Shown piece after piece: positions 3 through 44,398 of a DNA stretch of 50,165 nucleotides (within the stretch, counting starts at the first letter, position 1; each line of letters begins with the position of its first letter). The DNA comes from a virus. The stretch spans positions 1-50,165 of the IMG/VR virus record IMGVR_UViG_3300044645_001174; one strand, 5' to 3'. The position numbers and the translations under genes were made by a program. The notes beneath the pieces are model-generated. The model searched no databases, had not been told where the DNA came from, and saw only the letters and a list, made by a program, of their open reading frames with translations.

Positions 3-3000
3 GAAATTCAATGGCCAGGAGTTCAATGGAAACAAAAGTGTACACCAGCAACTCCATGTGAGTTTTGTGTAGATGATAATAAACTTAATTGCCCTGACAC
101 AAGATTAGCAAGATTAGTAGAAACACCATGTTTAAATTTAGAACTAGGTCCTCTTGGAGGAACTCTTGCTAATGGTACATACTTTGCAACTATTGCATAT
201 GCAATTAAAGGACAAAGAGTAACAGATTATTTTTCACCTAGTAACACTCAACCTATTTGGTCTCCTTTGGATTTACAAGGAGCTTTATCATTAGAAGTAA
301 ATGCTGATACAGTAAACTTTGATGAGTTTATATTAGTTATTGTATTTAATGTAAATCAACAAACAGTAGCTAAACAGATTGGTATTTACTCTACCCAAAC
401 TAAAAGAATTGAATTAGATAGAATCAAAGAAGATTTAATTACTGTTCCTATTGAACAAATTCCTCTTCAGACTCCAGTTTATGAAACTTCAGATCAAATG
501 ACTGAGGCTAATAATTATTTACTTAGAGTTGGTCCTAGAACTAAATTTGATTTTAATTATCAACCATTAGCTAACTTAATAAGATCTAAATGGGTATCAG
601 TAGAATATCCAGCAGACTATTATATAAAAGGTGGAAATAAAGGTAGTTACTATAGAGATGAGGTATATGCATTCTTTATTCGTTGGGTTTATAATACAGG
701 TGATAAATCAAATAGTTATCATATTCCAGGAAGACCTCCTCAATACTATAACTATCTAAATCCACAAGGGGTTGCAAGTTTAGAGTATGAAACAGACTCA
801 GGTATATTTGATCAAAATAAATTAGAGGGTACAGAAGAATTATTTGAAACATATAATACAGCAACAGTCCTTGGACTTCCTGCAGCATTAAATACTACAT
901 TACCAGATGGTGGTAAAGTAATTGGTTATGGTGATATGGGGTATTGGGAATCAACAGAAATATATCCTAATAATCTACCAGAAATTTGGAATTCAAGTGA
1001 GCATTGTTGGACTGGTCCTAGAGGTCAAGACCAATATATAACGGGACCTAATGCTGGACAATATGTAAATGATTTATGTGGTAAACAAATTAGACACCAT
1101 AAGTTTCCAGATAATGGAACAGATACTGGACCAAATAGTGTAACACTTCACTATAAACCAAATGTAGCTAATAATTCAAATGAATTAAACATTAGAATTC
1201 TTGGTGTTGTATTTGAAAATATTCTTCTTCCAGTAGACAATGAAGGAAAGTTAATTGAAGGTATAGTAGGTTATGAAATCTTAAGAGGATCAAGAGAAGG
1301 TAATAGAACTATTCTTGCAAAAGGAATGATTAACAACTTTAGAACTTTTGAAAATAAGAGTTATCCTCTTAATCAAGCAGGTTCTACTGTTAGAGGATTG
1401 TATGCTAATTATCCATTTAATACAATCAGACCGGTACAAGCTTCTTCACTAGTAACACCTTTTTCAGATCCATACATTAAATCAAAGATTGGTCAACAAG
1501 TTCCTTTGGATATTACATCAATCCATTCTCCAGATTTAATGTTTAGTACACCATATCTTTCTGCTACAGAATTAAAAATATATGGTGAGTTAAGAGGATA
1601 TTCTCAACAACAATTTAAATATCCACAAGATCATCCTGAGTTTAAATTGCTTAGTAATCTTGTAGTTGCTGTTGCGTTTATTTCAGGAGCTGCTCAAGGT
1701 GTAATATCAATGATTGGTAAAAGAACATTGAATCAACCAGATGTTACCGGAGTTCTTCAACAATTAATTAGTTCAAGTGGTATTGCAGTTACTAATCCTA
1801 CACAAATTTCATCTTTATCAGGAGCAACAAAAACAGCAATTGAAAACTATAATGATTATTTAAGAAATTACTATGGTGGAACACTACCTATTCTAGATGC
1901 TTTACAGATTATTAACCCTTTTGGTGGTTATAGTGCAACATCAGTAAATCAAAGATTAAATATATTAACCAATGTAGTTAATAACAGTGCGGCAGCTTCT
2001 GGAATAATTCCTATGTCTATTACAGGTAATATTGAATTTCCAGATAGTGCGTATTTGCCTCCAGTACTTTCATCACTTGGAGCTCTTAATAGGTTATCTT
2101 TTTATTTTTCGGAAGGAGCAGACTTAGCAATTAGAGCATTCTATACATTTATACCATACCAACAATATGCATTACAATGTATTGGTCATGGCTTATACAA
2201 TAGATGGGGAGCATTTAATAGAACACAGGTTCAAAGATTTAAACTTGAGGATTCTTTTTATATTAGAGATAATATACAACAAGTACCCGCATATCAATTA
2301 AATACTACAGGTCAGTATGTAAGATATACAATTAATAACTTACAACGCGGTGATACTGTAACTTTAAGAACATTGACTGGACCTTACTATAATCCAATTG
2401 CTTATCCAAATGGAGCAAGTACCGGGCCTTATGAGATTACTGCATTTAAAGATAATTCATTAATTACTCTTTCAGCTTTTGATGGTAATACAACTATTGC
2501 ATCTAACGGAACACTTAATCCAATTGCAAACTATCCAACATGGGAAGATCCAAGTGCTTCATTCTCATCTCAAATTGCAAGTCACTATGCAGGTTTAAAA
2601 TTTAGAATTAGAAATTTATATGGTCAGTTAGATTCTATAAAACAAATTCCAATTACACCATGTGAGCAAAAGTTAAGTGACTATGTAGTTAATACAGGAT
2701 TTTATACAGCATGTCCTTCGGATCCTGGTACATCATATTCAGTAAATCAAATATATAGAACTCAAATTTTCTTTGGGGGAGATATTTTTATAAATAGATA
2801 TACTGAAAAGAACTCAATGCTTTTCTTCTATAACTGGTTATATGATCAGCCAGATGGTTTTGAATATAACTACAAGTTATACAATATGATTCCAGATGCT
2901 AGATTCTGGGTTAACTCTAAGAAATATGATGTTCAAGATTTAATTCCAAATAGCTTTGGTCCATCAATGCAACCGGGTACAGGTTCATTTCCAACTAAAT

Positions 3001-4865
3001 TTTATAAACTTGATAATAAAAACTACAGGTTTAATAATGATACAGTTGTTGATTATCCAGGTGTGTTTAGAGTTAATGACTCATACTTTTATCTTGCTAA
3101 CTCAGGTGTTAGAGATTTCTTTGTAGAATCTGAAGTTCTAGTAGACTTTAGAATTGATGGTGAACTTGAATTTGAAAAACATTATAATCCTTATAGATAC
3201 ACTGATTTAGTATCTATGTTTGATACTGATCCACAAATCATTACAAGAGGTAATATTTGGAGATATGATTATTCACTTAGTATTACTAAGTTGTTTAATC
3301 AATACTTCTCATCTGGTAATTTACAAAGTAGATACTATAATCCTAAGGTTGCAAAACTATGTTATACATACTATCCAGATAGAATTATTTATTCATTACC
3401 ACAACAAGAAGAATCTTCAAAAGATAGTTGGTTTGTTTTTCTTGTAAATAACTATAAAGAATTTAAGTCTCAAATTTCCGCAGTTAAGCCAATTAATAAA
3501 AGTGGTATTATCATTACATTTAAAAATGATAGTCCATTGATGTATCAAGGTGTTGACACATTACAAACAGAACTAGGTACTAAAGTGACTATTGGTGATG
3601 GTGGATTATTTAGTCAACCGCCTCAAGCAGTTTCTAATTCAGATAAACCATATGAGTATGGTTCATCTCAAAATAGATTATCTGTAATTGGTACACCAGC
3701 GGGTATTTATTATATCTCACAAAACCAAGGTAAGATATTCTTATATGGTGGAGGTCTAAAAGAAATTTCTCAAGCTGGATTAAAATGGTGGTTCTCTGAA
3801 TTTTTACCATATAAACTAACTGATGATTTCCCTGACTACCCATACCAAGATAACCCAGTATCCGGTATTGGTTGTCAATCAGTATATGATAATGAAAACT
3901 CTATTGTATACTTTTCAAAGAAAGACTATAAGTTAAAGCAACAGTTTGTTGGTCAGAATGTTATTCAATATGTACCTTTAATTACTTCTGGTAAAAATAA
4001 AGGTAAAGGTGATTATTTTACTAATATTAATTTCCCAGGATCTACATACTTATTAGGAGATGAAGCTATTTTTGATAATGCTTCTTGGACGGTTAGTTTT
4101 GACCCTAAAAATCAATTCTTTCTTTCTTTCCATGACTGGCATCCAGATTTAACTTTTCCAACTAAGAATACATTCTTAACAACAAAATTTAATGGTATAT
4201 GGAAACATAATAGTGGTTGTAATAGTTACTGTAATTTCTATGGAACTAATTATCCATTTGAGATAGAACTTCCTATTATTACAGGTCAAACGGTTACAAC
4301 ACTAAAATCAGTTGAGTACATCTTAGAATCTTATAGAAAAGAACCTAACAACTGTGTAGATCAATTCCATGTGCTTGACTTTAATTTTGACAGAGCTTTA
4401 ATATTTAATTCAGAACAAGTATCTGGGTACCTTAACTTAAATATATTCCCTAAGAATAATGTTACATTAAGTGAGCAGTATCCTAAATTAAATCAATCTA
4501 ACTTAACTTCTTTTGATATCTTATTTAGTAAAGAAGAAAATAAATATAGATTTAACCAGTTCTGGGATATTACTAAAGATAGATCAGAGTTTCCAATTGG
4601 ATCAGACTATCCTCCAACAGGACCTGTTATTCCTGGAACAACAGTATTACAAGGTAACTACGCTGATAGATTTATTTGGATAACACAACCAAATGGATAT
4701 GTTAAAGATTTAAATCCTGCTAATCTTGATTTTCAAAAACCAGAAACTCAAAGAAAGAAGTTTAGACATTACTTAAACTTTATTAGATTTATCAAAGATA
4801 TTTCTACGGATACCAACATGATAGTTAAAATTACTAATACCAAGAATCAAATCTCCCCTAGATAA
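3..4865 (+). CDS. Large tail/muzzle-like virion protein, 5' end cut by window edge
   Basis: The frame is open from base 3, so about 1620 C-terminal residues are present and the true start lies upstream. A TTG at 267 is not a convincing start because the frame before it codes for ordinary protein. The protein is rich in Tyr, Asn and aromatic residues and looks mostly beta. Segments such as YYIKGGNKGSYYRDEVYAF (about nt 618-674) and GDMGYWESTE (about 929-958), followed by IRHHKFPDN, resemble a protein I recall as conserved in crAss-like phages just before the cargo genes. The last third repeats patterns typical of beta-propeller tail proteins (for example GIYYISQNQGKIFLYGGG near 3703-3756, and a Trp/His-rich segment near 4120-4210). 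A hydrophobic stretch near 1650-1715 could be a membrane helix. Its position next to cargo genes suggests the muzzle or tail tube of a podovirus; this is inference. Its stop overlaps the next start by one base (TAATG). Confidence 0.6.
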   Translation, partial: EIQWPGVQWKQKCTPATPCEFCVDDNKLNCPDTRLARLVETPCLNLELGPLGGTLANGTYFATIAYAIKGQRVTDYFSPSNTQPIWSPLDLQGALSLEVNADTVNFDEFILVIVFNVNQQTVAKQIGIYSTQTKRIELDRIKEDLITVPIEQIPLQTPVYETSDQMTEANNYLLRVGPRTKFDFNYQPLANLIRSKWVSVEYPADYYIKGGNKGSYYRDEVYAFFIRWVYNTGDKSNSYHIPGRPPQYYNYLNPQGVASLEYETDSGIFDQNKLEGTEELFETYNTATVLGLPAALNTTLPDGGKVIGYGDMGYWESTEIYPNNLPEIWNSSEHCWTGPRGQDQYITGPNAGQYVNDLCGKQIRHHKFPDNGTDTGPNSVTLHYKPNVANNSNELNIRILGVVFENILLPVDNEGKLIEGIVGYEILRGSREGNRTILAKGMINNFRTFENKSYPLNQAGSTVRGLYANYPFNTIRPVQASSLVTPFSDPYIKSKIGQQVPLDITSIHSPDLMFSTPYLSATELKIYGELRGYSQQQFKYPQDHPEFKLLSNLVVAVAFISGAAQGVISMIGKRTLNQPDVTGVLQQLISSSGIAVTNPTQISSLSGATKTAIENYNDYLRNYYGGTLPILDALQIINPFGGYSATSVNQRLNILTNVVNNSAAASGIIPMSITGNIEFPDSAYLPPVLSSLGALNRLSFYFSEGADLAIRAFYTFIPYQQYALQCIGHGLYNRWGAFNRTQVQRFKLEDSFYIRDNIQQVPAYQLNTTGQYVRYTINNLQRGDTVTLRTLTGPYYNPIAYPNGASTGPYEITAFKDNSLITLSAFDGNTTIASNGTLNPIANYPTWEDPSASFSSQIASHYAGLKFRIRNLYGQLDSIKQIPITPCEQKLSDYVVNTGFYTACPSDPGTSYSVNQIYRTQIFFGGDIFINRYTEKNSMLFFYNWLYDQPDGFEYNYKLYNMIPDARFWVNSKKYDVQDLIPNSFGPSMQPGTGSFPTKFYKLDNKNYRFNNDTVVDYPGVFRVNDSYFYLANSGVRDFFVESEVLVDFRIDGELEFEKHYNPYRYTDLVSMFDTDPQIITRGNIWRYDYSLSITKLFNQYFSSGNLQSRYYNPKVAKLCYTYYPDRIIYSLPQQEESSKDSWFVFLVNNYKEFKSQISAVKPINKSGIIITFKNDSPLMYQGVDTLQTELGTKVTIGDGGLFSQPPQAVSNSDKPYEYGSSQNRLSVIGTPAGIYYISQNQGKIFLYGGGLKEISQAGLKWWFSEFLPYKLTDDFPDYPYQDNPVSGIGCQSVYDNENSIVYFSKKDYKLKQQFVGQNVIQYVPLITSGKNKGKGDYFTNINFPGSTYLLGDEAIFDNASWTVSFDPKNQFFLSFHDWHPDLTFPTKNTFLTTKFNGIWKHNSGCNSYCNFYGTNYPFEIELPIITGQTVTTLKSVEYILESYRKEPNNCVDQFHVLDFNFDRALIFNSEQVSGYLNLNIFPKNNVTLSEQYPKLNQSNLTSFDILFSKEENKYRFNQFWDITKDRSEFPIGSDYPPTGPVIPGTTVLQGNYADRFIWITQPNGYVKDLNPANLDFQKPETQRKKFRHYLNFIRFIKDISTDTNMIVKITNTKNQISPR

Positions 4866-7800
4866 TGTATAACAAAAGATTACTTTCTAAAATTGATTTG
4901 GGAAAATACAATAAGCCAAATCCATATTCAAAGGATATTATTACTGATCCACAGGGTCAGTATAAATATCCAGGTAAACCTACTAGAATACCTTCAAGTA
5001 ATATTACAATGAAAGGGGTTGGTTACCCAGTGCTTGGTATAGCAGATAATGGTCAAAAGCAAATGATGCAACCAGGACAAGATTATAATTTTCCAGGAGC
5101 AAAGTATGTTGATGAATATCCACAAATGAGAAAAGGTGGTGGAATAAATTCTAAAAAATATACTAGAAGTTTAGAAGGTATAGGAGAGTTATTTAGAGAG
5201 TCTGCTTTGTTTAAAAAACCTAAGTCTAAAAAGAAAAAATTCTTTCATCCAAATGCAAAGTATTTTCAAGATGGTGGAATAACTTCACAAGAAGAAATAG
5301 ATGCAGCTAATGATGCTATGATGAAAGCAAGATTGGCTTATGCACAAATGCATGGTAATCCTGCTGCTCAAAGAATGGTGGTAGCTCCTGATCAACCATA
5401 TTTATTTGATTATGGTGATACTGGAACTCATTATATGGCATCTATGGGTAATTATGCAGTACCACTGATTCAAGATGTTAATGGTCAGCTTATGTTAGGA
5501 GACTATGGTCCTGAATCTGCAGAAGCTATGAGATTTGATAATCCTGAAGATGCAATGTATTTTGCTAAAAATTACAAAAAAATAACTCCAGATGAATCTT
5601 ACAGAAAAGAATATCAAGATGGTGGTGAACCAAAGAAACAAAGATTTAGTAAAAAAGATTCTGAAAGATTACCTGAAGATGAGTGGGCACAATATGTTTC
5701 ACAATATCCTGCTGTAGTTGTACGTCCAAGTGCTGAACAAGTTTCTAGAGTTAAAGCTCAAAAACGCGGAATGTTTAGAAACAGCGGAATGTTTAGGAAC
5801 AAAAAAATTTATAACGAGTATCCAGAAAATAGACAAATAAGTGAATCAACAGCTGTAAATAATATTTTTCAAAAACCACAACCAAGTTTTATTGGTAAAG
5901 ATCCATTTAAACATAGAAGTGAGGTAATACATAAACAAAGAGTAGCGACTGCAAAAAATATTAGAGCAAAGAGTGCAAATGTAAAGGAATATTTTTCTGA
6001 TTATCATAATTCTCCAAGATATTTAGAAATGCTTGAAAAAAGTTCTCCAGATAGGTTTGCAGAATATTGGGTAAATAGAGATGAAAATCTTAAGACACCA
6101 ATTGTTCATATTGAACATGAGCAACCAATTGATAGTCCAAATACTGGAGGATTTTCAATGAGTGATACTGGTGATATAACAGTACTTCCTCATGGACAAG
6201 GTGTTCAAGGTTTACTGCCACACGAATGGTCACATTCAACTGATAGACCACGTGGTGGTTATTCAAGACAAATACCATTTAAAGATCAGTTGTGGATAAG
6301 TCAACATAGAGCAAAAGATTGGTTTTCTTCTCCTGAATTTGCAAAAAAATCTGCTGAAGAAAGGAAAGCACATTTGCAATCAAAAAATGATCCTAGTTAT
6401 CAAAGATTTTTAAAAGATAAAAAAGAATGGTATGACTATGTAGGAGAAGATACTGAGACCAGAGCAAGATTAAATGATATAAGATATCAAGCAAAACAAA
6501 TGGGTATATATGATCCATTTACAGAAAAAGTAACTCCTAAAACTTTTAAGAAATTACTTAATACAAATTTTGAATCACCTTCTAAAGAAGGTTTTGATGC
6601 ATTAAAACAATTAAAAGATGTTTATACTGATGAAGAAATATTTTGGATGTTAAACAATATTTCTAAAAATCAAGATAAAGGTCAGGATACCACTCAACCT
6701 CAAATGGGTAAGTATGGTAGAATTATAAAACAATTTGCTCCAGGTGGTGTAGCATCTCCAAAAGACTTAGATCCTGAACATATGAAAAAATATCTTGCAG
6801 ATCTTAGAATGCAAGAGAACAGTATTAGAAAAGGATATAAAAATGGTATGTGGTATCCGCATGCAAGTGTGGAAGGTGGTGCAGATACTATTGCTTATGG
6901 TCATAAACTTACACCTAATGATTCTGCATTACGTAGAGGGATTTCAGAAGACCAAGCATTAAAATTACAAGAACAAGATGTATTAAAGAATCAAGCGCTT
7001 GCAAAAAAACAGATAGATAAAAAATATGGTACTGGTACATTTGATAATCTTCCTCAAGATTCACAAATGCTATTAGTGGACTATCAGTATAACTTAGGTA
7101 CACTTTCTGGATTTCCAAGTTTTGTTAAAGCAACTGTAGAGGGCAATAAGGAACAAATGTTGGCTCAGCATAAAAGATTTGGTGCAGGCAAACCTCTTAC
7201 TAAAAGAAATGAATGGACAGCTAATGTGATCAATAATTTGGAGATTCCAAAACCGTATGATCCAATGAAAGAAGTTACTGTACCATTAGCTAATGTACCA
7301 GATGCAACAAATGTAGTTCAACCTGTAATGCCTGAAGGACCTACTGAAGTAGAATTGCCGCCACAAAAATATCAAGGTGGTGGTGTTGTAGAATTAAATG
7401 GTAATCAATATGTAAAGAATCCAGCAAATGGAAATTGGACATTTACATCTGGCGCTCCAGTAACTGATACCATGACATTACAAAAACTTAATTATGGTGA
7501 AGGTAAACCTGTGGGTAGTCCTGCAGTACAAGAGGCTCCTGGAAGACAAAAGGCAAAAGAAAATATAGTAGCTGCATCTAAAAATGTTAAGCCGCTACAG
7601 CCTATTGAAAGAAATGTTCCAATAGGTAATGTATCTGATGCAACTACAGTTGTTCAACCATTTATTCCAAAACCTTCCTTTGTAGATCAACCTAGTCCTG
7701 CAAAGTCATTAGCAGATTCACAAAAGCTATTACAAGATGAAGCTCAAAGATTAATTACTTCTGGAGCTGCAAGAGATATGGGCGTTACTGCAAAATATCT

Positions 7801-10800
7801 TAGTCCACAAAATGCAAACTCTGCAAATCCAAAATCATTACAGCAGTTAATGATTGAGGAAATGACTAAGAAAGATTTTCAAAAAAGATTAGATCAGTCT
7901 CGTTTAAACAAAGTAAATAAAAAATGGAATGAATCATCTATATTAGGTAAAGCTGGAGATGTAACAAGAAGTTTCTTAGCTGACCCTATTAATGTTACTG
8001 AAGAAGCAATTTGGGGAGACCAATATTTACCAGATAGAGCTAACATTCTAAGAGATCCAAGAAACCCATTAAACGCATATTATAGAAAAGAAACTGGTTA
8101 TGATAACAGTGGATTAAATAATATGGTTAATATGATTAATCCTTTCTCATCTGCAGCAGATGCTACAGTATACGCAAGACAAGGTAACTTGCTTGGTACT
8201 GCAAAAGAATTTGGTGAAGGACTATTAAAAGCAGCTGTAGTAACAAAAGTTCCAGGAGCATTAAATTCATTAATGTCTAGACGTGTTGGTTTAGGTGCAT
8301 TAGGTACTACAGATTTAGGAACTATTGCTGGAGGAGCAGGTGTTGCATCCGGTACTCTTTCTTTACCTACAACAGCTAGAGCATTATATAAAGCTGGTCA
8401 AACTGGTAATAAAGAAGATATTAGAGCTGCAGTAAATCAAGCAGGTATGAATGCATTAGATTTTATTGCTCCTGAAGTAATAGGATCAAAAGGTGCATTA
8501 AGTGCTTTAATGAAAGGAGAAAGATTAACTCCTCTTCAACAGTTGTCACGTCAGAATATACTAAGGGGATCTGCAACTAATGCTTTAAATGATTTGAGAC
8601 TTTCTACTCCAGGATTAGATAATGCTCTTGATATGAGTAGAAACATTAGAAATTATAGAGAACAAAGTGCTGTGCCAGCTTCTACTTTTTTAGAAAATAG
8701 TTCACGGCCTCAATTGACATTGACAGATTTAATGAATAATAGAAGAGAAGTAGATAGGCTTATACAAGAGTTAAGAAATCAGGGTGATACAAATTCAGAA
8801 TATTTTCAAGCAGTACTTGATCAAAGGGATCATCTTACAAGACAAATTGATAATATTAATTTTCAAAAAACAAATGAAAGAGCATTTACACAACTTCAAA
8901 GTGAATTAAATAATCAAACAGCTAATGCTAATATTCCAAGTCAACCAATGTCTAATCTTGCTTTACAAGCGAGAAGAAATGAAATAAATGATATTGCAAC
9001 AGCATTAAGAAATGAGTCTGGAAAAGATAGTCCATTTTATAGGGCTGCTGTTGCAGAAAAATTAGGAATTGATTCTAAGATAGCAGCACGAGATGAACAC
9101 ATGAGAGCTACATTAGCTTCATTGGAAGCTAACCTAAGTGGAGATGCTGCAAGAATTGCACAAGCAAACGATAGATTACAAGTTGCTAATGAAAACTTAC
9201 AAATTACTGACCCTGCTTTTTATCAAGAATATACTGGGCCAGTTGATGCACCTATAACTGCTGGTTCATTTGATACAACAAAACCGACACCAGGTGTAAC
9301 AGAATATACAGGTTCTAATTTACCAGCTCCTGTTAGAACATCACAAGTGTATAGTAATATGGGTAGACCAGGCACTCCTCCAGTTAAATTTAGTGAAACT
9401 ACTAGACAAGCATTAAGACGTAGACCAGATAGATCACGTATGACATTAGAAGCTCAATTGAGAGATGCTGAAGATCCAATTGATTTTGTTAACAGACTGC
9501 GTAATCAATATGCAAATGGTAATATTAATAGAGAAGTTTATGATGAATTATTAGGTGGACTTAAAGATTCTGTAAAACCTATATCTGATGGGTGGGAAGA
9601 TTTTGATTTCTTCAAGGAAATAGCAGCTACTAATCCTGATAAACCATATACTGGAAGTATGCTTTCAAGAAATGAAGTATTGAATGAGTTAATGGCAATT
9701 CCAGATGAAGCACTAGATGATGTACTTAGGACTGCATATGGTTACGGATTAGATGATATTGAATTTTTATTTAATAATCCTGGTATTTCAGATCAAGCAA
9801 TAAAAATTGGAATGAATCAAGTGCTGGATGATTATACATTTATGGCAAAATATAACACACCTAATCCTAATGCACCAGCTTTAGATTTCAGAAATAGACA
9901 AACTCTTTCACCACAACTAAGAGGTAATGGAGATGACTTAGGTATGTTAAATATATCTAAAAAATCATTAGATAAAATTGAAAAAACAAGATATTCTAAT
10001 CAACCACAAACTACAGGTACTATTTCTTATAGTAATACTGAAGTTGCTGATTTACCAAAAGTTATAGATAAAAAAGTTATTGTAAACAATAAAGAACTTA
10101 AAGAACAAATTGATGCATATGAAGAAGCTTTTTCTCAAATCCCACAAGGTTCTCTAAATCCTGTGCATAGAGATATTAGAAATAAACTTGAAGACTTAAA
10201 AGCAACACAATGGTTAAGAACTGAATATGCTCAAGAGCTTCGTGCAGCAGGATTAAGTCCAGATGAAATTGAAAAAATCACAATTGTAACATCAGGTCCT
10301 GGAGCAAAATCTATGATAGATAAAGATGGCAATGTAATTGGTACTTTAAATTTTAGTGAAAGTATACATGAGGGAACAAAATATAGCCAAATTGGATCAA
10401 CAGGTTTAAGTACTAAATATCATGGTTATAATTTAAAAGCTTCTGGATTTAAAAATTGGGATGAAGCTCAAGATGCATTAGCTAAAAGATACTTAGATGA
10501 AGAGTTAAATAAAATTACAAATGCGTCAGACAGAAAGAATCCTATTGTTGTTAAGTCATTAACTAAGAAAAGTAATGAAAGAGCTGCTGCAGAAATTGTA
10601 CAACTACAAAGAAATAACAATAATAGATTTGGCGAAGCTCTTTATAGAGGTGTGCATCATGGTATTAAAGATACTAGAGGTGGTATTGGAACCAGAGAAC
10701 ATTTTGCTGAAACAAATTTAATTGATCCAATTACAGGTTTAGGAGTTAGAAGATATAGAGCAAAAGATTATTGGGCAAGTCAAATGAGACAAACTAATGA

Positions 10801-10936
10801 TAAAGGTGTTGCTAAAGCAGGAAGAATGTATGGCCCACGTACAGAATCTGATATTCAATGGGGTGATGACGGACCTATCTTTATTTTAAGAAAGAAAGGT
10901 GGTGATGTTCCTAAACTTTTAAGGTTTACCAGATAA
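4865..10936 (+). CDS. Multidomain internal virion protein: zincin metalloprotease motif plus GH24-like lysozyme
   Basis: 2023 residues. The N-terminal 130 residues are basic. Residues 140-250 form a compact module of unknown function between two [YF]QDGG motifs. A zincin signature HEWSH lies at 453-457. A lysozyme domain lies at about 630-800: Glu651 is followed by EGGADTIAYGHKLT ending at Thr683, matching the T4-lysozyme pattern E-x(n)-T-I-G-x-G-H-x-L-T, with Thr675 at the place of T4 Thr26. The region 850-2000 is helical, with a Gly/Ala-rich hydrophobic patch at about 1110-1190 and an unrecognised C-terminal domain (about 1720-2000) ending in KKGG plus ten residues. GG motifs at 91-93, 137-138, 253-254, 627-628, 838-840 and 2012-2013 mark the borders of the modules. 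The likely role is an ejected protein that locally digests peptidoglycan during infection. The domain calls are sequence patterns; ejection is inferred from known crAss-like cargo proteins. Confidence 0.75.
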   Translation: MYNKRLLSKIDLGKYNKPNPYSKDIITDPQGQYKYPGKPTRIPSSNITMKGVGYPVLGIADNGQKQMMQPGQDYNFPGAKYVDEYPQMRKGGGINSKKYTRSLEGIGELFRESALFKKPKSKKKKFFHPNAKYFQDGGITSQEEIDAANDAMMKARLAYAQMHGNPAAQRMVVAPDQPYLFDYGDTGTHYMASMGNYAVPLIQDVNGQLMLGDYGPESAEAMRFDNPEDAMYFAKNYKKITPDESYRKEYQDGGEPKKQRFSKKDSERLPEDEWAQYVSQYPAVVVRPSAEQVSRVKAQKRGMFRNSGMFRNKKIYNEYPENRQISESTAVNNIFQKPQPSFIGKDPFKHRSEVIHKQRVATAKNIRAKSANVKEYFSDYHNSPRYLEMLEKSSPDRFAEYWVNRDENLKTPIVHIEHEQPIDSPNTGGFSMSDTGDITVLPHGQGVQGLLPHEWSHSTDRPRGGYSRQIPFKDQLWISQHRAKDWFSSPEFAKKSAEERKAHLQSKNDPSYQRFLKDKKEWYDYVGEDTETRARLNDIRYQAKQMGIYDPFTEKVTPKTFKKLLNTNFESPSKEGFDALKQLKDVYTDEEIFWMLNNISKNQDKGQDTTQPQMGKYGRIIKQFAPGGVASPKDLDPEHMKKYLADLRMQENSIRKGYKNGMWYPHASVEGGADTIAYGHKLTPNDSALRRGISEDQALKLQEQDVLKNQALAKKQIDKKYGTGTFDNLPQDSQMLLVDYQYNLGTLSGFPSFVKATVEGNKEQMLAQHKRFGAGKPLTKRNEWTANVINNLEIPKPYDPMKEVTVPLANVPDATNVVQPVMPEGPTEVELPPQKYQGGGVVELNGNQYVKNPANGNWTFTSGAPVTDTMTLQKLNYGEGKPVGSPAVQEAPGRQKAKENIVAASKNVKPLQPIERNVPIGNVSDATTVVQPFIPKPSFVDQPSPAKSLADSQKLLQDEAQRLITSGAARDMGVTAKYLSPQNANSANPKSLQQLMIEEMTKKDFQKRLDQSRLNKVNKKWNESSILGKAGDVTRSFLADPINVTEEAIWGDQYLPDRANILRDPRNPLNAYYRKETGYDNSGLNNMVNMINPFSSAADATVYARQGNLLGTAKEFGEGLLKAAVVTKVPGALNSLMSRRVGLGALGTTDLGTIAGGAGVASGTLSLPTTARALYKAGQTGNKEDIRAAVNQAGMNALDFIAPEVIGSKGALSALMKGERLTPLQQLSRQNILRGSATNALNDLRLSTPGLDNALDMSRNIRNYREQSAVPASTFLENSSRPQLTLTDLMNNRREVDRLIQELRNQGDTNSEYFQAVLDQRDHLTRQIDNINFQKTNERAFTQLQSELNNQTANANIPSQPMSNLALQARRNEINDIATALRNESGKDSPFYRAAVAEKLGIDSKIAARDEHMRATLASLEANLSGDAARIAQANDRLQVANENLQITDPAFYQEYTGPVDAPITAGSFDTTKPTPGVTEYTGSNLPAPVRTSQVYSNMGRPGTPPVKFSETTRQALRRRPDRSRMTLEAQLRDAEDPIDFVNRLRNQYANGNINREVYDELLGGLKDSVKPISDGWEDFDFFKEIAATNPDKPYTGSMLSRNEVLNELMAIPDEALDDVLRTAYGYGLDDIEFLFNNPGISDQAIKIGMNQVLDDYTFMAKYNTPNPNAPALDFRNRQTLSPQLRGNGDDLGMLNISKKSLDKIEKTRYSNQPQTTGTISYSNTEVADLPKVIDKKVIVNNKELKEQIDAYEEAFSQIPQGSLNPVHRDIRNKLEDLKATQWLRTEYAQELRAAGLSPDEIEKITIVTSGPGAKSMIDKDGNVIGTLNFSESIHEGTKYSQIGSTGLSTKYHGYNLKASGFKNWDEAQDALAKRYLDEELNKITNASDRKNPIVVKSLTKKSNERAAAEIVQLQRNNNNRFGEALYRGVHHGIKDTRGGIGTREHFAETNLIDPITGLGVRRYRAKDYWASQMRQTNDKGVAKAGRMYGPRTESDIQWGDDGPIFILRKKGGDVPKLLRFTR

Positions 10937-10948
10937 ATTTAAAATTAG

Positions 10949-10956
10949 TATATTTA
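10949..10956 (+). promoter_or_regulatory. TATATTTA element upstream of the gene at 10973
   Basis: An exact TATATTTA lies in the 36-nt gap between two late genes, 16 nt before the ATG. The same octamer precedes two other genes at 16-17 nt (16794-16801 plus strand, 49286-49293 minus strand). It may be the core of a promoter or a translation-associated leader. It does not match the Bacteroidota -7 consensus TAnnTTTG. The region is very AT-rich, so chance is possible. Confidence 0.35.
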
Positions 10957-10972
10957 ATATATAAGGTATAAA

Positions 10973-13903
10973 ATGAAAAAATCCAATATGCCACTTTATA
11001 AAGCTCAAATGGGCGGAGGTACAGAGCAGAATGAGATGTATGCTAGAATGGCTACTTCCGTTCAACAGGCTATTAAAAGAGGTCAGACGCCACAAGATAT
11101 CTATGAATCACTTATTGCACGTAAGATGGATCAGAAACTTGCTATGCAATTAGTTTCATCTGTGGTTAAGTATATGATGGAAGCTGGTGAACTTGAAGAA
11201 GATGCTTTAGATCAAGCAGAACAAAAAGATGCTGCAGAAATTCAAGCTATGGAGCAAGAGAAAGCGCTCATGGCAAATGAAAAAGATGCAGCTGCTCAAC
11301 AACAAATGGATCAATACCGTCAACAAAGTATGGCTGCAGCTATGGATACATCTGCTGCTGATATGGCTGAAGAAGAAGATGCAAATAGTACGGAAGAAAT
11401 ATTTGGTTTTCAAGACGGTGGTCAACAAACAAGCTATGCGTCTCTCTATGAAAACTCTGATGGTACAGAAGTTGAGGAAGAAGAAACAACTACTCCAGAT
11501 GGAAAATTTAGTTTAGACACCTTAGTTGAAAATACTGCCGGTACACAGAATCTAAACTTTCCTGGATTAGAAGAGTATTACCTACCGTATAGTCCATTAG
11601 CTAGTGATAGTCTTGACTTGCCTGATATGTCTACCCCTACTGCAAAATATGGTGGTAGTCAAAAGAAAAAGTTTGCAAAGAATGTAATGAACTTACTAAA
11701 GAAGCAGGCTGGTGGAATGCAAGAAGATGAGGTTGTTGATGCAGGTATTGCAAAACAAACTGATGACTTAACAGGAACAGTAAAGAAAAAGAAAACAAAC
11801 TTTATTGATGCTGTTGGTAATACTGCTAAGAAAGTTAAGATAGATGAGTGGTTTGAGAAACTAAAAGAAACTCAAGATCCTTTATTAGATCAAATTCTAT
11901 CTCCGGTACCCCAAGGAGATCCTGCACAAGAACAAAAAATGCAGATAGATCAAGCAATGGGTGAAGACCAAATGCGTAGAGGTGGTCAGAAGAAAGCTAA
12001 AAGAAAGTATAGAAACCTTATTGAAAAAACTAATAGATTACTAGGAGTTGAAGGAATGTATCCATCAAACTTTGGTGATATTCCTGTAAATAGTTACAAT
12101 AAGTTTCAACCTTTTATGCAACAAAGTTTTGAAACTATTGATGTTCCTACATTAGAAAAATATTTTTCTGATTTATCTAGTATCTCTTCAGGTCAACAAG
12201 ATCAACCAATAATGCCAATGATTGATGTTTATGAAACAGGATTCTTTGGTAGACCTAAGAAATATAGAATTTTTTATCCTCAAGCATCTCTAGGTACAGC
12301 AGAACAACAAGCAGAAGAAGCAACTCTTAAAAACAATATTGAGAATGATCCTAATGCTGAAGTAACTGTAAGTACTAGTGAAGTAAATTTACAAGTTCCT
12401 GGTGATCCAAAAGAAATGCCAAGTACTGATTTTATTCAAGGTTATGCATCTGGTGGGCAGTATGGTGGATTTGTAGATCCATCTATACCAAGTTTAACTA
12501 AATTTATTTATGGTGGAAATGATTTTCCTGAAGAAGCAAAGAATGTAAATGATCCTTACTTTACAGATATGGGTCAGTATCAAGATGGTGGAATGACATT
12601 TCCAAATGCAGATGAAGATCCAGAAAATCCTATGCATCATTTAAGTATGTATAGCCAAGCTTCTGATATTTTTCATCAACCAATGAATACGGTTGAGCAA
12701 GCTAAAAAAGGTGGTCCAACAAAAGCACAAGCAAGAAGAGTAAGGAGAGCACAAAATTCTATGTTAAGAGATAACTTAATTCCTATTAATAGATTTATTG
12801 ACTATGAAGGTAGTTATGCTCAACAAATGGGTATGCCTACTATTTATAATTCAGATACTATTTATTCTGGTTCAATGACTGGAGCTCCATTAGTTTTTTC
12901 TGATGTAACTAAAAGAGGAATTTTTGGAGCACCTAAGCAATGGACAGACTATTATATGGTAGAAGATGATAGTTCTAATGTAGATCTAAGTCAACACCCT
13001 ATGTTACAAAAATCATCACAACAAGAAATGCAAGGTGGTGATGATTATAGTGATCTAGGTATTAGAGCTAGAATGGCTATTAATAAAGGTGAAAGAAGAA
13101 CTGAAAGACAAAGAGCAAGAGCAGAAGAACAAGGTTATCAAATGGGAGGTGAGTCAGAATTTGTACAATCTCCAGAAGATGAAAACTTTGAATTTTATAG
13201 AAGACTTGAAAAAGGTATGTATACTCCTCCTCCAATGATGAGAAGAGGTGGTAGACTTCCTATGGCTTTTGAAGGTTTAGAAAATACTCCAGTATCATAT
13301 ACATCTAATCCTGCATTAGAAGGACAAACAGAAGTAGATTTTACTGTTAATACAGCAGGTAATACAAACTTACAACCTTCTAGTTTTTGGTCTAATTTTC
13401 AATCTACTGAAGTACCTGGTCCAGCTATTCAGCAACCAGAACAAATCAATATTCAACCTGAAAATGTAGAAGAGTATCAAGCTACTAAATCTACTACAGC
13501 TCCAAAAATGCCCGATCCAATTAAAGGTAAAACTTTAGTTCAAGTAAATAGACAAAGAGAAGATATTAGAACGGTTGATCCAGAAGCAGCACTTAACATG
13601 TTTAATTCTGCTGCCAACTTTGGATTAGGTCTTGCAGGTAGAAAAGAACAGAGAGAACAAGAACGTCAAATGTATGAACAAAACTTTAATCCTATGAAGC
13701 TTTATGGTGTTAAAGCAAGAAAGGATAGAGGTGACTGGGAAGTAAACCAAGGTTCATATAGAGATCCTGGTTCAATTAGATTAGGTAGATCAAAACAGTT
13801 TGGAGGCCCTATGACTGATCCAAATGAAGATGATGTAATGTACATGACTGATGAGCAGATCCAAGAATTTATGGCTGCCGGAGGTGAAATTGAATTTTTA
13901 TAA
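10973..13903 (+). CDS. Internal virion (cargo-type) protein with many GG motifs
   Basis: 976 residues, of no family I can name. The N-terminal 130 residues are predicted helical and rich in Gln, Met, Ala and Glu. The rest is low in hydrophobic clusters, rich in Gln, Tyr, Pro and charged residues, and contains several Lys/Arg-rich stretches. Its most striking feature is at least fourteen GG doublets in similar settings: G14-16, 149-150, 227-228, 247-248, 337-338, 494-495, 498-499, 514-515, 539-540, 580-581, 688-689, 725-726, 759-760, 944-945 and 970-971. Most follow an aromatic, Gln, Met or basic residue, as in FQDGG, KYGG, YQDGG, YQMGG and MRRGG. The gene follows the lysozyme/zincin gene after 36 nt and precedes the next gene by 9 nt. 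Synteny suggests a capsid-interior protein; the GG sites could be protease processing sites or packing motifs. Both functions are inferences. Confidence 0.6.
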   Translation: MKKSNMPLYKAQMGGGTEQNEMYARMATSVQQAIKRGQTPQDIYESLIARKMDQKLAMQLVSSVVKYMMEAGELEEDALDQAEQKDAAEIQAMEQEKALMANEKDAAAQQQMDQYRQQSMAAAMDTSAADMAEEEDANSTEEIFGFQDGGQQTSYASLYENSDGTEVEEEETTTPDGKFSLDTLVENTAGTQNLNFPGLEEYYLPYSPLASDSLDLPDMSTPTAKYGGSQKKKFAKNVMNLLKKQAGGMQEDEVVDAGIAKQTDDLTGTVKKKKTNFIDAVGNTAKKVKIDEWFEKLKETQDPLLDQILSPVPQGDPAQEQKMQIDQAMGEDQMRRGGQKKAKRKYRNLIEKTNRLLGVEGMYPSNFGDIPVNSYNKFQPFMQQSFETIDVPTLEKYFSDLSSISSGQQDQPIMPMIDVYETGFFGRPKKYRIFYPQASLGTAEQQAEEATLKNNIENDPNAEVTVSTSEVNLQVPGDPKEMPSTDFIQGYASGGQYGGFVDPSIPSLTKFIYGGNDFPEEAKNVNDPYFTDMGQYQDGGMTFPNADEDPENPMHHLSMYSQASDIFHQPMNTVEQAKKGGPTKAQARRVRRAQNSMLRDNLIPINRFIDYEGSYAQQMGMPTIYNSDTIYSGSMTGAPLVFSDVTKRGIFGAPKQWTDYYMVEDDSSNVDLSQHPMLQKSSQQEMQGGDDYSDLGIRARMAINKGERRTERQRARAEEQGYQMGGESEFVQSPEDENFEFYRRLEKGMYTPPPMMRRGGRLPMAFEGLENTPVSYTSNPALEGQTEVDFTVNTAGNTNLQPSSFWSNFQSTEVPGPAIQQPEQINIQPENVEEYQATKSTTAPKMPDPIKGKTLVQVNRQREDIRTVDPEAALNMFNSAANFGLGLAGRKEQREQERQMYEQNFNPMKLYGVKARKDRGDWEVNQGSYRDPGSIRLGRSKQFGGPMTDPNEDDVMYMTDEQIQEFMAAGGEIEFL

Positions 13904-13912
13904 TTTTGTCAC

Positions 13913-16759
13913 ATGTTTCGTAAAGTAAGAATTAAAAAATTGCCACAAGCTAGAACTGGTTACCAAGTAAATGGTTCTCTTAAAAATGATGTTGCTGGTT
14001 TTGGTGGAGCAGACTACAATCATTATATTGGAGTTCCAGATATGGAAATGAGCAGATATATTACTGCTGTGCCAAGAGAGGAAGCTAATCTTGAAGCAGA
14101 GGGTGGTGAAACTGTTTATGGTGATCTCAATGGAGATAACTTTCCAGAACACAAAATCATAAAAGGCCCACGTCACTCTGAAGGTGGCGTACCTTTAAAG
14201 TTACCAGAAGATAGCTTTATTTTCAGTGATACTAACTCAATGAAAATAAATGATGAGAATATCTTACAGATGTTCAATAAACCTGTGAAAAAAGGTAAAG
14301 GTAATAAAGGATATACTCCAGCGGAATTAGCAAAGCAATATGATATTGATAGATATAGAAAAATACTTCAAGATCCTAATTCAGATAATGTAGATAGAAG
14401 AACTGCAGAGTTAATGATACGCAATTACAATATGAAATTGGGTGCATTAGCTCTTGCTCAAGAATCTAAAAAAGGATTTCCACAAGGTATTCCTGTTATG
14501 GCTAAACCATATCTTGAAGCTAATGGTATTGAAGAAGAACAACTTCTTCCACCACAACTTCCAGAACCACAAGCACCAGCATCGCCTGATCAAGAAGATA
14601 TGATGGCATATGAGGATCAAGAAATGATGCAAGAAGGTATGATGCCGCAAGAGATGATGCCTCAAGGTCAAGAACAAATGATACCGCCTATGGCAGAATA
14701 TGGTATGATGATAGGTGGTTATGATATGCCTTATGCTGAATATGGTATGGCTATGGGAGCTAATCCTATGAATTACATGGGTAGAACTAAGCAGTGGTAT
14801 GAAGATGGTGGAGAACTAGATGAATATCCTAATGGAGGAGAACCGCCTAAAGGACAGATTGTAAAAAGATCAGATTATGCTGATGAGGCTGCTTATCAGT
14901 TAGCTCTTAAAAAAGCTTATTTAAAAGCGCAGGATAAGGGAGAACAAATTTGGGTACAAAAACCAGATGGATCTTATACTGAAATGAAAGCTGAGTATAA
15001 AGCTCCAGCCGGATATACAGGAGATACTACTAAATGGAATAATAATGCTGCTGTTGCTTCTAGATACTATGCAATGGAAACAGCATTAAAGGATCCAGCA
15101 ACTGCTAAGTTATTTGCAGATGCCACTAGAAAAGCTATACAGAATCAAGAGTCTTATAGGTCTAAGAAAGGTATTGTTGGTAGAAGTTATGGAAAACTTG
15201 ATGCTTCTCAATTATCTGATGAGGAAATTGTAAAGAACTTCTTAGAGCACCAAGAAAGAAACTTAAAACTTGCAGCTTCTGGAAATGAATCTTTCTTATA
15301 TAAAGATTTTGATGGTAAACTAAGACCGTTTGAAAGTTCTGGTAATGGTAAAGGTGATAACCGTGGCTTTAAGGATATAATGAAAACCCTTAAAAAACCG
15401 GACGGAAGTTCTTATACTGATGCTGAAATAGATGCTAGGTATAAAGAAATGCAAAGAACTGCACCAGATCTTGATACGGCATTTAAAAACATTGGTTTAG
15501 AAATGCCAGCTCAAGCAAAAGGAACTGCAGCTGAGAAAAAAGCATTACTACAACAAGCAACATTCCAAGGTTATAATCAATTAGTAAAAGACTTTAATGA
15601 AGGTAAGATTACTAATGAAGATGACATGGTAAGGTTGATGAACTTTAGAGGTAATCTTCAAAGAGGATATAATGATGAAACTGGTCAAGCAGTTACTGAT
15701 ATTTCTCCTATTGATGCGTACTATACTAATACTACTGCAGGGCAGATATCAAACTATGAGGATCTTATGTTCTCAGAAATACCTCCTAAAGATCAACCAT
15801 GTCCATGTAATGATGAATCTGGTAAACCAGTAGTAAGAGATGAAGATGGCAATTGTCCTTGTCCTGATGATAAAAAATGTCCATGTGGATATGATCCAGC
15901 AACTAAGAAATGTTTACCATGTCAACCTCCACAAAAGAAACCTGCTAACTGGTGGTTACAAGATACAATCAAAACAGCTGGTTCATTAATGGATTTAATG
16001 GGTATTGAAAAGTATATGCCTTATTCACCTATGGTAGATCTTGAAGAACCTAGACCTACGTTCTTAGATCCAACTAGAGAGCTTGCACAGCAGTCAGAAC
16101 AAGCTAATATTGCTACACAAGCATTGGCTCAGTTTGCGGGACCACAACAACTTTCTGCTAGAGCTTCTAGTATTCAAGGTACTGGTGCAAAACAAGCTGC
16201 AGATACTCTTGCTAGATTTAATAATGCTAATGTTAATATTGCTGATCAGTTTGAGTTTAAGTCTGTTGATGTAAGAAATCAAGAAGCTCTTGCAAATCAA
16301 GCTGCACAATCTAAGCTGTATGATCAAAATACAATTGCTAATCAACAGTATGATAATGCTAAACTTGCAATGAGAAATCAGCTTAGAAACTATTATACAA
16401 ATGCAATTACTAATAGAGGTAAGACAGCAGCATTAAATGAGCTGTATCCTCAATACTCTGTATTACCTGAAACAGGTGGTATGCCAGGATTTGAGTTTGG
16501 TAAAAGAATTAAACCTCAAACAGGTGGTACAAAAAGTTATGATGAATTTTTACAGTATTATTTAAGTAAAGGATTTGATAATACCGAAGCAATTGCAGCT
16601 GCTGAAAAAGCATATAAAAGTCAAAGTGGTAGCACTGCAGATGATGATGCATTAGCAGTAATAAATGCACAGTATGGTGTACCTCAACAAAAGTATGGAG
16701 GATATATGGATGAGGGCGGTTTTGTATATGCAGATAGTATTTATCCTTTTACATTCTAA
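13913..16759 (+). CDS. Conserved crAss-like virion protein with Cys-rich cluster
   Basis: 948 residues. The start is supported by the N-terminus MFRKVRIKKLPQARTGYQV, which resembles the start I recall for a protein found across crAss-like phages. Segments containing REEANLEAEGGET (about 56-68), RHSEGGVPLKLP and FIFSDTNSMKI (about 88-116), and the KKGFPQGIP block, also fit that family. Residues 205-270 are Met/Gln/Pro/Glu-rich low complexity. A cluster of eight cysteines lies at 630, 632, 648, 650, 656, 658, 667 and 670, mostly as CPC pairs; it could bind metal or form disulfides. GG motifs occur at 64-65, 91-92, 268-269, 299-300, 308-309, 855-856, 871-872, 929-930 and 935-936, continuing the pattern of the two preceding genes. 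The region 700-840 is helical and Ala/Gln/Asn-rich. It is probably a structural or cargo component; its exact role is unknown. Confidence 0.65.
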   Translation: MFRKVRIKKLPQARTGYQVNGSLKNDVAGFGGADYNHYIGVPDMEMSRYITAVPREEANLEAEGGETVYGDLNGDNFPEHKIIKGPRHSEGGVPLKLPEDSFIFSDTNSMKINDENILQMFNKPVKKGKGNKGYTPAELAKQYDIDRYRKILQDPNSDNVDRRTAELMIRNYNMKLGALALAQESKKGFPQGIPVMAKPYLEANGIEEEQLLPPQLPEPQAPASPDQEDMMAYEDQEMMQEGMMPQEMMPQGQEQMIPPMAEYGMMIGGYDMPYAEYGMAMGANPMNYMGRTKQWYEDGGELDEYPNGGEPPKGQIVKRSDYADEAAYQLALKKAYLKAQDKGEQIWVQKPDGSYTEMKAEYKAPAGYTGDTTKWNNNAAVASRYYAMETALKDPATAKLFADATRKAIQNQESYRSKKGIVGRSYGKLDASQLSDEEIVKNFLEHQERNLKLAASGNESFLYKDFDGKLRPFESSGNGKGDNRGFKDIMKTLKKPDGSSYTDAEIDARYKEMQRTAPDLDTAFKNIGLEMPAQAKGTAAEKKALLQQATFQGYNQLVKDFNEGKITNEDDMVRLMNFRGNLQRGYNDETGQAVTDISPIDAYYTNTTAGQISNYEDLMFSEIPPKDQPCPCNDESGKPVVRDEDGNCPCPDDKKCPCGYDPATKKCLPCQPPQKKPANWWLQDTIKTAGSLMDLMGIEKYMPYSPMVDLEEPRPTFLDPTRELAQQSEQANIATQALAQFAGPQQLSARASSIQGTGAKQAADTLARFNNANVNIADQFEFKSVDVRNQEALANQAAQSKLYDQNTIANQQYDNAKLAMRNQLRNYYTNAITNRGKTAALNELYPQYSVLPETGGMPGFEFGKRIKPQTGGTKSYDEFLQYYLSKGFDNTEAIAAAEKAYKSQSGSTADDDALAVINAQYGVPQQKYGGYMDEGGFVYADSIYPFTF

Positions 16760-44137: not shown

Positions 44138-44398
44138 TTAATATTCTCCTTCTTCTGCATCTATAAATGCTACTGCTTCATTAGCATCTTTGAACTTAAT
44201 TATCTCAAATTTACTTTCATCAAAATTATATCTAACTACATATAATTTAGTGATTGCATTGTGTAAACTACACTTTTTGCATATAATACACATGCCTTTA
44301 CTTGACTTAATCTGATATTTTCTACGGTTAGGAGCATACTTAGATAAGGGCTTTTCTATTTTACATTCAAAGCACTTCAGAGTTTCCATCTGCATCAA
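44138..44398 (-). CDS. Small zinc-ribbon protein
   Basis: 86 residues with two Cys pairs in the pattern C9-x2-C12 (CFEC) ... C37-x2-C40-x2-C43 (CIICKKC), separated by a basic stretch ending SSKG. This arrangement, with KPLSKY after the first pair, resembles zinc ribbons common in small phage proteins and in endonuclease VII-like HNH families, but no catalytic HNH part is present. Methionines 1, 2 and 4 (codon 4 at 44387-44389) are all possible starts; each overlaps the 3' end of the thioesterase gene by 20-32 nt, implying translational coupling. The stop codon abuts the stop of the plus-strand giant gene with no gap. The function is unknown; nucleic-acid binding is plausible. Confidence 0.6.
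   Translation of the reverse strand: MMQMETLKCFECKIEKPLSKYAPNRRKYQIKSSKGMCIICKKCSLHNAITKLYVVRYNFDESKFEIIKFKDANEAVAFIDAEEGEY

Follow-up and report, generated by a model that had tools for sequence, protein, structure and literature searches.

The 50,165-nucleotide window analysed here, positions 1 to 50,165 of IMG/VR record IMGVR_UViG_3300044645_001174, is a fragment of a crAss-like phage, in which three adjacent genes encode large proteins, A, B and C, that carry recurrent Gly-Gly (GG) runs in a preferred setting, [YFM]-x-x-GG. An initial annotation had drawn attention to these motifs; their occurrence is confirmed and, by comparison with related sequences, the observation is extended, in that the GG motif marks the ends of the cassettes of which such proteins appear to be built. 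This marking of cassette ends is what is new here. The genes concerned are given below with the anchor of the locus and the control protein (aa, amino acids; pLDDT, predicted local distance difference test score).

267..4865, + strand: muzzle-protein homologue, crAss-like anchor of the locus (Pfam PF25731 crAss_MUZ, E 7.6e-20)
4865..10936, + strand: protein A, 2023 aa, mosaic by family architecture, probable cargo by gene order, 12 GG runs
10973..13903, + strand: protein B, 976 aa with 15 GG runs, predicted disordered over large parts (AlphaFold mean pLDDT 50.3)
13913..16759, + strand: protein C, 948 aa with 10 GG runs, candidate for a C1-like cargo protein (AlphaFold mean pLDDT 72.4)
16819..20127, + strand: protein D, control, with 3 GG runs that all lie outside the motif setting

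Chance was estimated with 2000 shuffles in each of two ways: for the number of GG runs each protein was shuffled, and for their setting the runs were held fixed while the other residues were shuffled. B is clearly rich in GG (15 runs against 5.4 expected, reached by 0/2000 shuffles), C mildly so (10 against 5.7, reached by 68/2000), and A is not enriched (12 against 9.7, reached by 500/2000). The setting, taken over A, B and C together, is far from chance: [YF][QE]DGG occurs 5 times against 0.04 expected and [YFM]..GG 17 times against 6.7, values reached by none of the 2000 shuffles, and Q.GG occurs 11 times against 4.0 (3/2000). The initial annotation had the open reading frames (ORFs) and their coordinates right, and every setting it quoted is present, namely FQDGG, YQDGG, KYGG, MRRGG and KKGG twice each and YEDGG, YQGGG and YQMGG once each, including all five copies of [YF][QE]DGG. 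Its figure of about 28 doublets must be raised to 37 runs. Its statement that GG is essentially missing from protein D has to be withdrawn, since 3 runs against 3.5 expected is no depletion; none of the three lies in the [YFM]..GG setting.

The same preference extends across related loci. Ninety records were compared, comprising the window, 85 IMG/VR relatives (8 first, 77 further loci) and four named phages. For family statistics, each similarity cluster from the 85 related loci was represented by a single protein, L010-L013 were left out, and ORF calls were mechanical and uncurated; clustering reduced A from 55 to 35 proteins, B from 74 to 46, C from 86 to 45, D from 84 to 49, E from 77 to 46, F from 6 to 5, the muzzle family from 51 to 24, and the unassigned ORFs of at least 240 aa between muzzle and C from 51 to 37. 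[YFM]Q.GG is observed 51 times in A against 2.4 expected, 97 against 9.1 in B, 21 against 6.5 in C and 12 against 3.9 in the unassigned ORFs, compared with 0 against 2.2 in the muzzle family, 0 against 2.6 in D (0 of its 183 GG runs) and 1 against 2.6 in E. Gln occupies position -2 of 218/598 GG runs in B (43 expected) and 91/319 in A (15 expected) and is not listed as enriched in C; most GG runs of the three families do not have Gln there. Phe, Tyr or Met is enriched at -3, and Leu is depleted at -2 (14 against 31 expected in B, 3 against 26 in C), as is Ile in C (6 against 20). The information in A and B is concentrated before GG, with about 0.7-0.8 bit at -3 and -2 and 0.2-0.3 at +1 and +2. 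Directly behind the motif, Pro occurs 15 times against 31 expected in four families summed; most proteases cut poorly before Pro. The C family is the weakest case, with several GG runs lying within a conserved folded domain (RHSxGG).

Further copies lie in small basic proteins. In the near-complete relative G008, a broader pattern, [YFMLWK][QAK].GG, occurs 35 times in 36,432 aa, of which 20 fall in four large ORFs between muzzle and D, 14 in five small Lys-rich ORFs and 1 elsewhere; in G009 it occurs 15 times, 11 of them in ORFs between muzzle and D or small Lys-rich ORFs and 4 in three other proteins. A survey of the 10 kb downstream of the capsid gene in 19 further genomes found 102 Lys/Arg-rich ORFs with 206 GG runs against 109 expected, among them [YFM]K.GG 48 times (5.8 expected) and [YFM]Q.GG 16 times (0.9 expected), with Met at -3 in 61 (8.1 expected). 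At least one such ORF carries a looser motif in 16/19 genomes, and the 154 other ORFs of this region contain [YFM]K.GG once against 2.1 expected. One small Lys-rich protein, from L139, had no tblastn match in annotated phages. A similar aromatic/Met-x-x-GG repeat is seen outside crass-like phages in gp68 of Roseobacter phage CRP-2 (L157:1206-1520), which carries MNKGGM, YNYGGM, MKHGGM and YNKGGY.

Comparison of their sequences shows A-type proteins to be strings of swappable cassettes, many of which end in a C-terminal tag, [YFM]-[Q/K/A]-x-G-G, with unrelated sequence beginning directly past its second G. Among 1792 BLAST block ends, 34% lie within 3 aa of a GG, compared with 5.6% for random positions. 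An identical GG is the last pair of a block in 145/1354 cases, an identical x-G in 13/3531 and any other identical dipeptide in 125/36239, so that blocks, which are mutually non-independent, terminate at GG 31 times more commonly than at other identical dipeptides. When the first 150 residues, which hold a conserved module common to A-type proteins, were excluded, the figures were 35/608 for GG and 87/18343 for other dipeptides (47 GG sites, 28 proteins). Furthermore, GG is favoured more at block ends (18% against 1.7% for other dipeptides, last five columns) than at block starts (6.4% against 1.4%, first five columns). In this the motif behaves like a cassette's C-terminal tail. A separate comparison of GG-to-GG segments gave end-to-end homology of 0.26 for GG boundaries, 0.20 for midpoints and 0.01 for random ones, and was set aside because the midpoints are themselves GG-defined and the hypotheses are not separated.

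Domains that occur both alone and joined meet at the same point. DUF6321, located by an ad hoc pattern in 18 ORFs at 21 loci, opens directly with MAK[ST]PAW or a close variant in 13/18 ORFs, follows a Lys-rich leader in 3/18 and is fused behind DUF5872 in 2/18. In all five extended ORFs the joint reads K[ML]K[SKT]GG followed directly by ST[PA]AW; the pattern flagged four, and the fifth, L140, was read by eye (TGGSTAAW). A cut after this GG would give the extended proteins almost the same N-terminus as free-standing DUF6321. The module KGTF...ANFARN, a second example, has GG at both ends in 9/9 copies, a partly circular count as its five seeds already held GG; the copies lie at various positions within C1-like proteins and, in one case, within a B protein, and in cr10_1 the module is free-standing behind a 20-aa leader that ends YKNGG. 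Another module, found in the B protein of L009, makes up a small separate protein of Roseobacter phage CRP-2 and sits within cyanophage proteins. DUF6321 and DUF5872 proteins were also seen near the capsid gene (L092:13938-14288 and L092:13691-13951); the former has matches in 545 phage records, for the most part from cyanophages and pelagiphages, and among 40 listed there is one with a virion-protein annotation. The Pfam scan of G008 has each of the two families once.

The initial annotation proposed that conservation of the doublets amid drifting flanks be checked in relatives; GG proves conserved, clearly in B and C and less so in A, which leaves its interpretation standing. Up to 19 homologues were compared for each protein, all of them from complete ORFs. 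In B, identity is 0.60 at GG glycines, 0.35 at single glycines, 0.21 over all residues and 0.16-0.22 in the flanks; in C it is 0.74 at GG glycines against 0.42 over all residues, and in A 0.30 against 0.15, with few sites persisting. As alignment may pull GG onto GG, dipeptides occurring at least four times per protein served as control, among which GG ranks 1st of 117 in B, 1st of 108 in C and 4th of 233 in A; near unrelated columns, GG is found in 0.7-1.7% of homologues. Several sites are lineage-specific (580, 688 and 725 in B, each in 0/19 homologues), which indicates that GG sites are gained and lost with a similar grammar.

In the AlphaFold models, 14/15 GG runs of B and 7/10 of C fall in segments of pLDDT below 50, so that 21/25 probably lie in disordered segments. 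The excess holds against residues at large (binomial p 0.0017 for B, 0.0016 for C) and against single glycines (p 0.009 and 0.011, respectively). Individual sites and segments of the three proteins, all on the + strand, are as follows.

5126..5143, + strand: A, MRKGGG, residues 88-93, closing the conserved N-terminal module (GG near the column in 16/19 homologues)
5264..5278, + strand: A, FQDGG, residues 134-138 (GG near the column in 17/19 homologues)
5612..5626, + strand: A, YQDGG, residues 250-254, lineage-specific (1/19 homologues)
6221..6235, + strand: A, HEWSH, zincin-like sequence motif, residues 453-457
6764..7243, + strand: A, lysozyme-like cassette by tblastn, with GG 6 aa before and 44 aa after it
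7370..7384, + strand: A, YQGGG, residues 836-840 (1/19 homologues)
11408..11422, + strand: B, FQDGG, residues 146-150 (GG near the column in 14/19 homologues; flank identity 0.11)
11657..11716, + strand: B, short lysine-rich helix between two GG runs, residues 229-248 (model helix 230-245)
12578..12592, + strand: B, YQDGG, residues 536-540 (9/19 homologues)
13136..13150, + strand: B, YQMGG, residues 722-726, lineage-specific (0/19 homologues)
13835..13900, + strand: B, C-terminal mini-domain YMTDEQIQEFMAAGGEIEFL (GG in 19/19 homologues)
14039..14554, + strand: C, folded N-terminal domain in the AlphaFold model, residues 43-214, a possible match to the portal-bound gp45 domain
14798..14812, + strand: C, YEDGG, residues 296-300 (12/19 homologues), in the segment 215-308 of pLDDT below 50

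The GG runs that bracket the lysine-rich helix of B are persistent, that at 227 in 19/19 homologues and that at 247 in 18/19. The mini-domain of B, searched with a strict pattern, is C-terminal in 11/46 B proteins and internal in 11/35 A proteins, and occurs in 4/37 unassigned proteins; none was found in the C, D, E or muzzle families. HExxH is present in 12/35 A proteins (16 observed against 0.4 expected by composition), and the lysozyme-like cassette matches a Vibrio phage 'lysozyme-like domain protein' by tblastn (E 2e-3) and has no Pfam match. Two recurrences were seen in A proteins, with instances in L037:364-7089, L064:5137-6483 and L059:4714-6048: the peptide DISVPxLNQ, often followed by GG, and an ELTxEEI...GY.VE mini-domain, which is also C-terminal in B proteins.

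Crassvirales membership of the locus rests on the muzzle match PF25731 in the window and on the crassvirus capsid, Ring_1 and Ring_2 of G008. The capsid region is absent from the window itself, and a capsid homologue was found in 24/24 related records. Over the 90 records there were 86 ORF assignments to C, 84 to D, 77 to E, 74 to B, 57 to A and 54 to the muzzle family; in the 40 records listed, genes follow the order muzzle-A-B-C-D-E, with gaps where ORFs are unassigned or cut off. A, B and C sit between the muzzle protein and the giant proteins of the polymerase block. In crAss001, the genes behind the muzzle encode the cargo proteins C1 and C2 and polymerase-associated proteins, detected in virions by mass spectrometry of a tryptic digest (PMC10172136). 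Proteins of phages phi4:1 and phi17:2 are annotated as virion structural proteins. From their position, A, B and C are probably virion cargo too. Pfam and PHROGs gave nothing convincing for the three proteins, and tblastn against annotated phages gave no match for B or C and five weak matches for A. The best named match of the muzzle protein is Leptolyngbya phage Lbo-JY46 (L011, PP438436.1; 96% of the query, 25% identity), which also matches the N-terminal module of A (E 7e-3). Lbo-JY46 is recorded from a cyanobacterium, and 36/40 muzzle matches are Flavobacterium or Cellulophaga phages, so that its recorded host may need checking. One relative, contig G007, carries the capsid gene twice near opposite ends (C1:5336-6949 and 127511-129124), probably by assembly overrun of a circular map.

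The initial annotation had read the GG runs as possible cleavage sites or, instead, as docking motifs. This reading is partly supported: conservation in relatives did not refute it, and the cassette ends speak for cleavage. The protease it would call for was not found in the scans given below, and both versions are hypotheses. We tentatively favour cutting after GG, somewhat short of even confidence, as it accounts for the exact block ends, for the joints at GG, for the placement of GG in predicted disordered segments and for the low count of Pro behind the motif; the concentration of information before GG in A and B likewise favours cleavage. A phage or host protease would read the tag and cut after GG in head assembly or ejection, so that larger precursors would give rise to small enzymes, to proteins that bind DNA and to pieces of a channel, a scheme parallel to that of the adenovirus protease on core precursors, without relatedness. 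The first candidate enzyme would be the 3522-aa protein at 27631, through its zincin-like domain, its link to GG being a guess. A fuller version, in which the packaged precursors are polyproteins and a dedicated GG-specific enzyme, perhaps a zincin that travels with the packaged RNA-polymerase complex, frees many small cassette proteins at [YFM]QxGG-type tags in the head or on entry, seems to us more doubtful than cutting as such. If true, it would be the equivalent in a bacterial virus of what happens to the adenovirus core, carried out by an unrelated enzyme, and would explain the separate C1 parts in capsid and tail. The candidate motifs in the window are as follows.

30592..30606, + strand: HEAWH, zincin-like sequence motif in the 3522-aa protein, candidate protease
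38810..38824, + strand: HEFSH, zincin-like sequence motif in the 1977-aa protein, also in G008 and absent from the list for G009

The corresponding large proteins of G008 and G009 carry HEAWH and HESWH, and gp47 of crAss001, a possible homologue of the 3522-aa protein, carries HEAFH. In G008, moreover, a putative metallopeptidase of 392 aa has a VWA domain, and HETMH occurs in a protein of 148 aa. A C39 double-glycine leader system was rejected, such a peptidase being absent from the Pfam lists of G008 and the motif being internal and repeated. An argument for selection against cutting, from the rarity of [YFM]..GG in polymerase-block proteins, was likewise dropped, as the non-cargo proteins of six other sets show the same rarity.

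Several observations weigh against cleavage. Pfam searches of 90/103 ORFs of G008 found no GG-specific, adenain/Ulp1-like or prohead protease, though distant prohead protease families could escape Pfam; NCBIfam on 56 of those 90 found no GG-specific or prohead protease, and PF02902 matched 0/24 records in a search whose control was likewise silent. We know of no zincin that cuts after GG. Some sites lie 4-15 residues apart (L009), a spacing that domain release would not need, and GG followed by Pro still occurs 15 times. In C, the information after GG (0.43 bit at +1, 0.48 at +2) matches that at -2 (0.44), in part owing to the folded domain. [YFM]..GG is not enriched in crAss001 gp45 alone (3 against 3.1 expected) or in three ORFs of L011 (2 against 2.4), and it is below expectation in non-cargo sets, so the contrast with the controls may partly reflect a general property of folded proteins. 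The 154 other capsid-region ORFs also hold [YFM]Q.GG 6 times against 1.2 expected. Finally, the resolved segment 425-552 of crAss001 C1 spans AFGG (GG 427-428) and two more GG runs.

In the docking alternative the proteins stay uncut, and each [YFM]xxGG would fit into one of many like pockets on the portal, tail rings, capsid lining or scaffold, many weak contacts recruiting and holding the interior proteins. The ordered, portal-bound part of crAss001 C1 begins at AFGG (residues 425-428), each protein bears many copies at very close spacing in segments predicted to be disordered, and the broad pattern keeps to ORFs between muzzle and D or small Lys-rich ORFs in 34/35 cases in G008 and 11/15 in G009. 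Docking would give no reason for blocks to end exactly past the second G, or for GG to be the exact point at which separate genes are joined in fused ones, and it has no known binding partner. On balance we consider it rather unlikely, yet a serious rival, because the motifs are many and closely spaced and one is ordered at the portal.

A GG run might also serve as a supple link that lets the cargo unfold and thread portal and tail, with the aromatic and Gln residues aiding chain packing or capping the preceding helix. The cargo passes constrictions of less than 50 Å (PMC10172136), and GG lies in predicted disordered segments and, for several runs of B, at helix ends. A plain linker, however, needs neither a fixed [YFM]-Q-x, as seen in the Gln excess at -2 in B (218/598 against 43 expected), nor conservation of single joints amid drifting flanks, and we regard such a role as improbable. 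The cassettes are clearly common to, and have moved among, different proteins, so duplication and recombination could in principle have spread chance GG ends that have no present function. That GG is the best-conserved dipeptide in B and C, if only the fourth in A, that the same grammar appears at lineage-specific sites, and that crAss001-type C1 proteins favour Ala rather than Gln at -2 all make such inherited repetition very improbable.

The nearest system for comparison with the GG motif is the crAss001 cargo protein C1 (gp45, with a chain in structure 7QOG), whose gene shares the neighbourhood past the muzzle with A, B and C, though the window group has three ORFs where crAss001 has gp45 and gp46. 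Ten C1-side proteins (eight from Steigviridae, two from crAss002) have Ala at -2 in 37/132 GG runs (13.5 expected) and Phe at -3 in 17 (4.2 expected), in place of the Gln of the window group; gp46-like proteins have few GG runs. Compared family to family by hhalign, C and gp45 align weakly, though colinearly, over C 40-188 (P 0.0048, probability 7%), and gp45 alone had no match to the C profile. Structural comparison of the C model by Foldseek and VIA-align brought up nothing meaningful and no gp45 chain among the matches listed, which does not imply that C and gp45 differ, and the C profile, searched against PDB sequences, hit only low-complexity stretches or chance similarities. Residues that directly follow GG in gp45, a protein of 91 kDa, include 211, 265 or 266, 334, 429 and 564. 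Two parts of C1 are resolved in crAss001, residues 214-245 (tail) and residues 425-552 (capsid), which the authors bridge via 179 connecting residues (PMC10172136). Each part fits one GG-delimited stretch, bar AFGG and the two internal GG runs, and the authors' bridge is possible.

Prohead-protease maturation is known from phages T4 and phiKZ as well as SPN3US. In SPN3US, as described in PMC10052503, a short motif recurs across several internal head proteins, with propeptides and multiple cuts per protein; there the cut follows Glu (E-124), in contrast to GG in the window group. Adenain processes the precursors of adenovirus core and capsid proteins at (M/I/L)xGG sites, and Gln and Asn are seen at P4 as well (PMC4246237); the adenovirus core holds histone-like proteins. 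The window group differs in that the scans of G008 found no adenain-like protease, strict (M/I/L)xGG does not describe its sites, Leu being depleted, and cleavage is proposed from sequence. Polyvalent proteins of phages and conjugative elements are injected proteins of large size and mosaic make-up that include lysozyme and zincin domains, and Iyer and colleagues proposed that zincins process them (PMC5512222). A may resemble them in HEWSH and the lysozyme-like region, by motif and weak similarity, Pfam being silent on A; the main text of PMC5512222 does not contain the words 'glycine' or 'linker', whereas GG tags mark the joints in the window group.

Recurrent cleavage motifs in internal head proteins (PMC10052503) and GG sites in adenovirus (PMC4246237) were thus already known. 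In the open-access literature we found no account of a GG-tagged cassette architecture of crassvirus cargo, and no paper on GG-type maturation in a tailed phage or on such a packaging motif; the main text of one crassvirus review (PMC10136315) contains neither protease, peptidase nor proteolytic. Crassviruses are described as the most abundant human-gut viruses, with a virion capacity of ~5.5 MDa of cargo protein that is mostly unresolved by cryo-EM (PMC10172136). The cassette-end motif offers a rule for splitting giant, unannotated cargo proteins into units. If the sites are cut, they would represent a GG-type maturation system in a tailed phage and, if uncut, a new class of packaging motif.

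Elsewhere in the window, the 1977-aa protein with HEFSH (38204-44137) contains a LysM domain at residues 1650-1676. At 44367-44786 on the - strand lies a small protein that, by its sequence features, may be a hotdog-fold acyl-CoA thioesterase, unusual in a phage.

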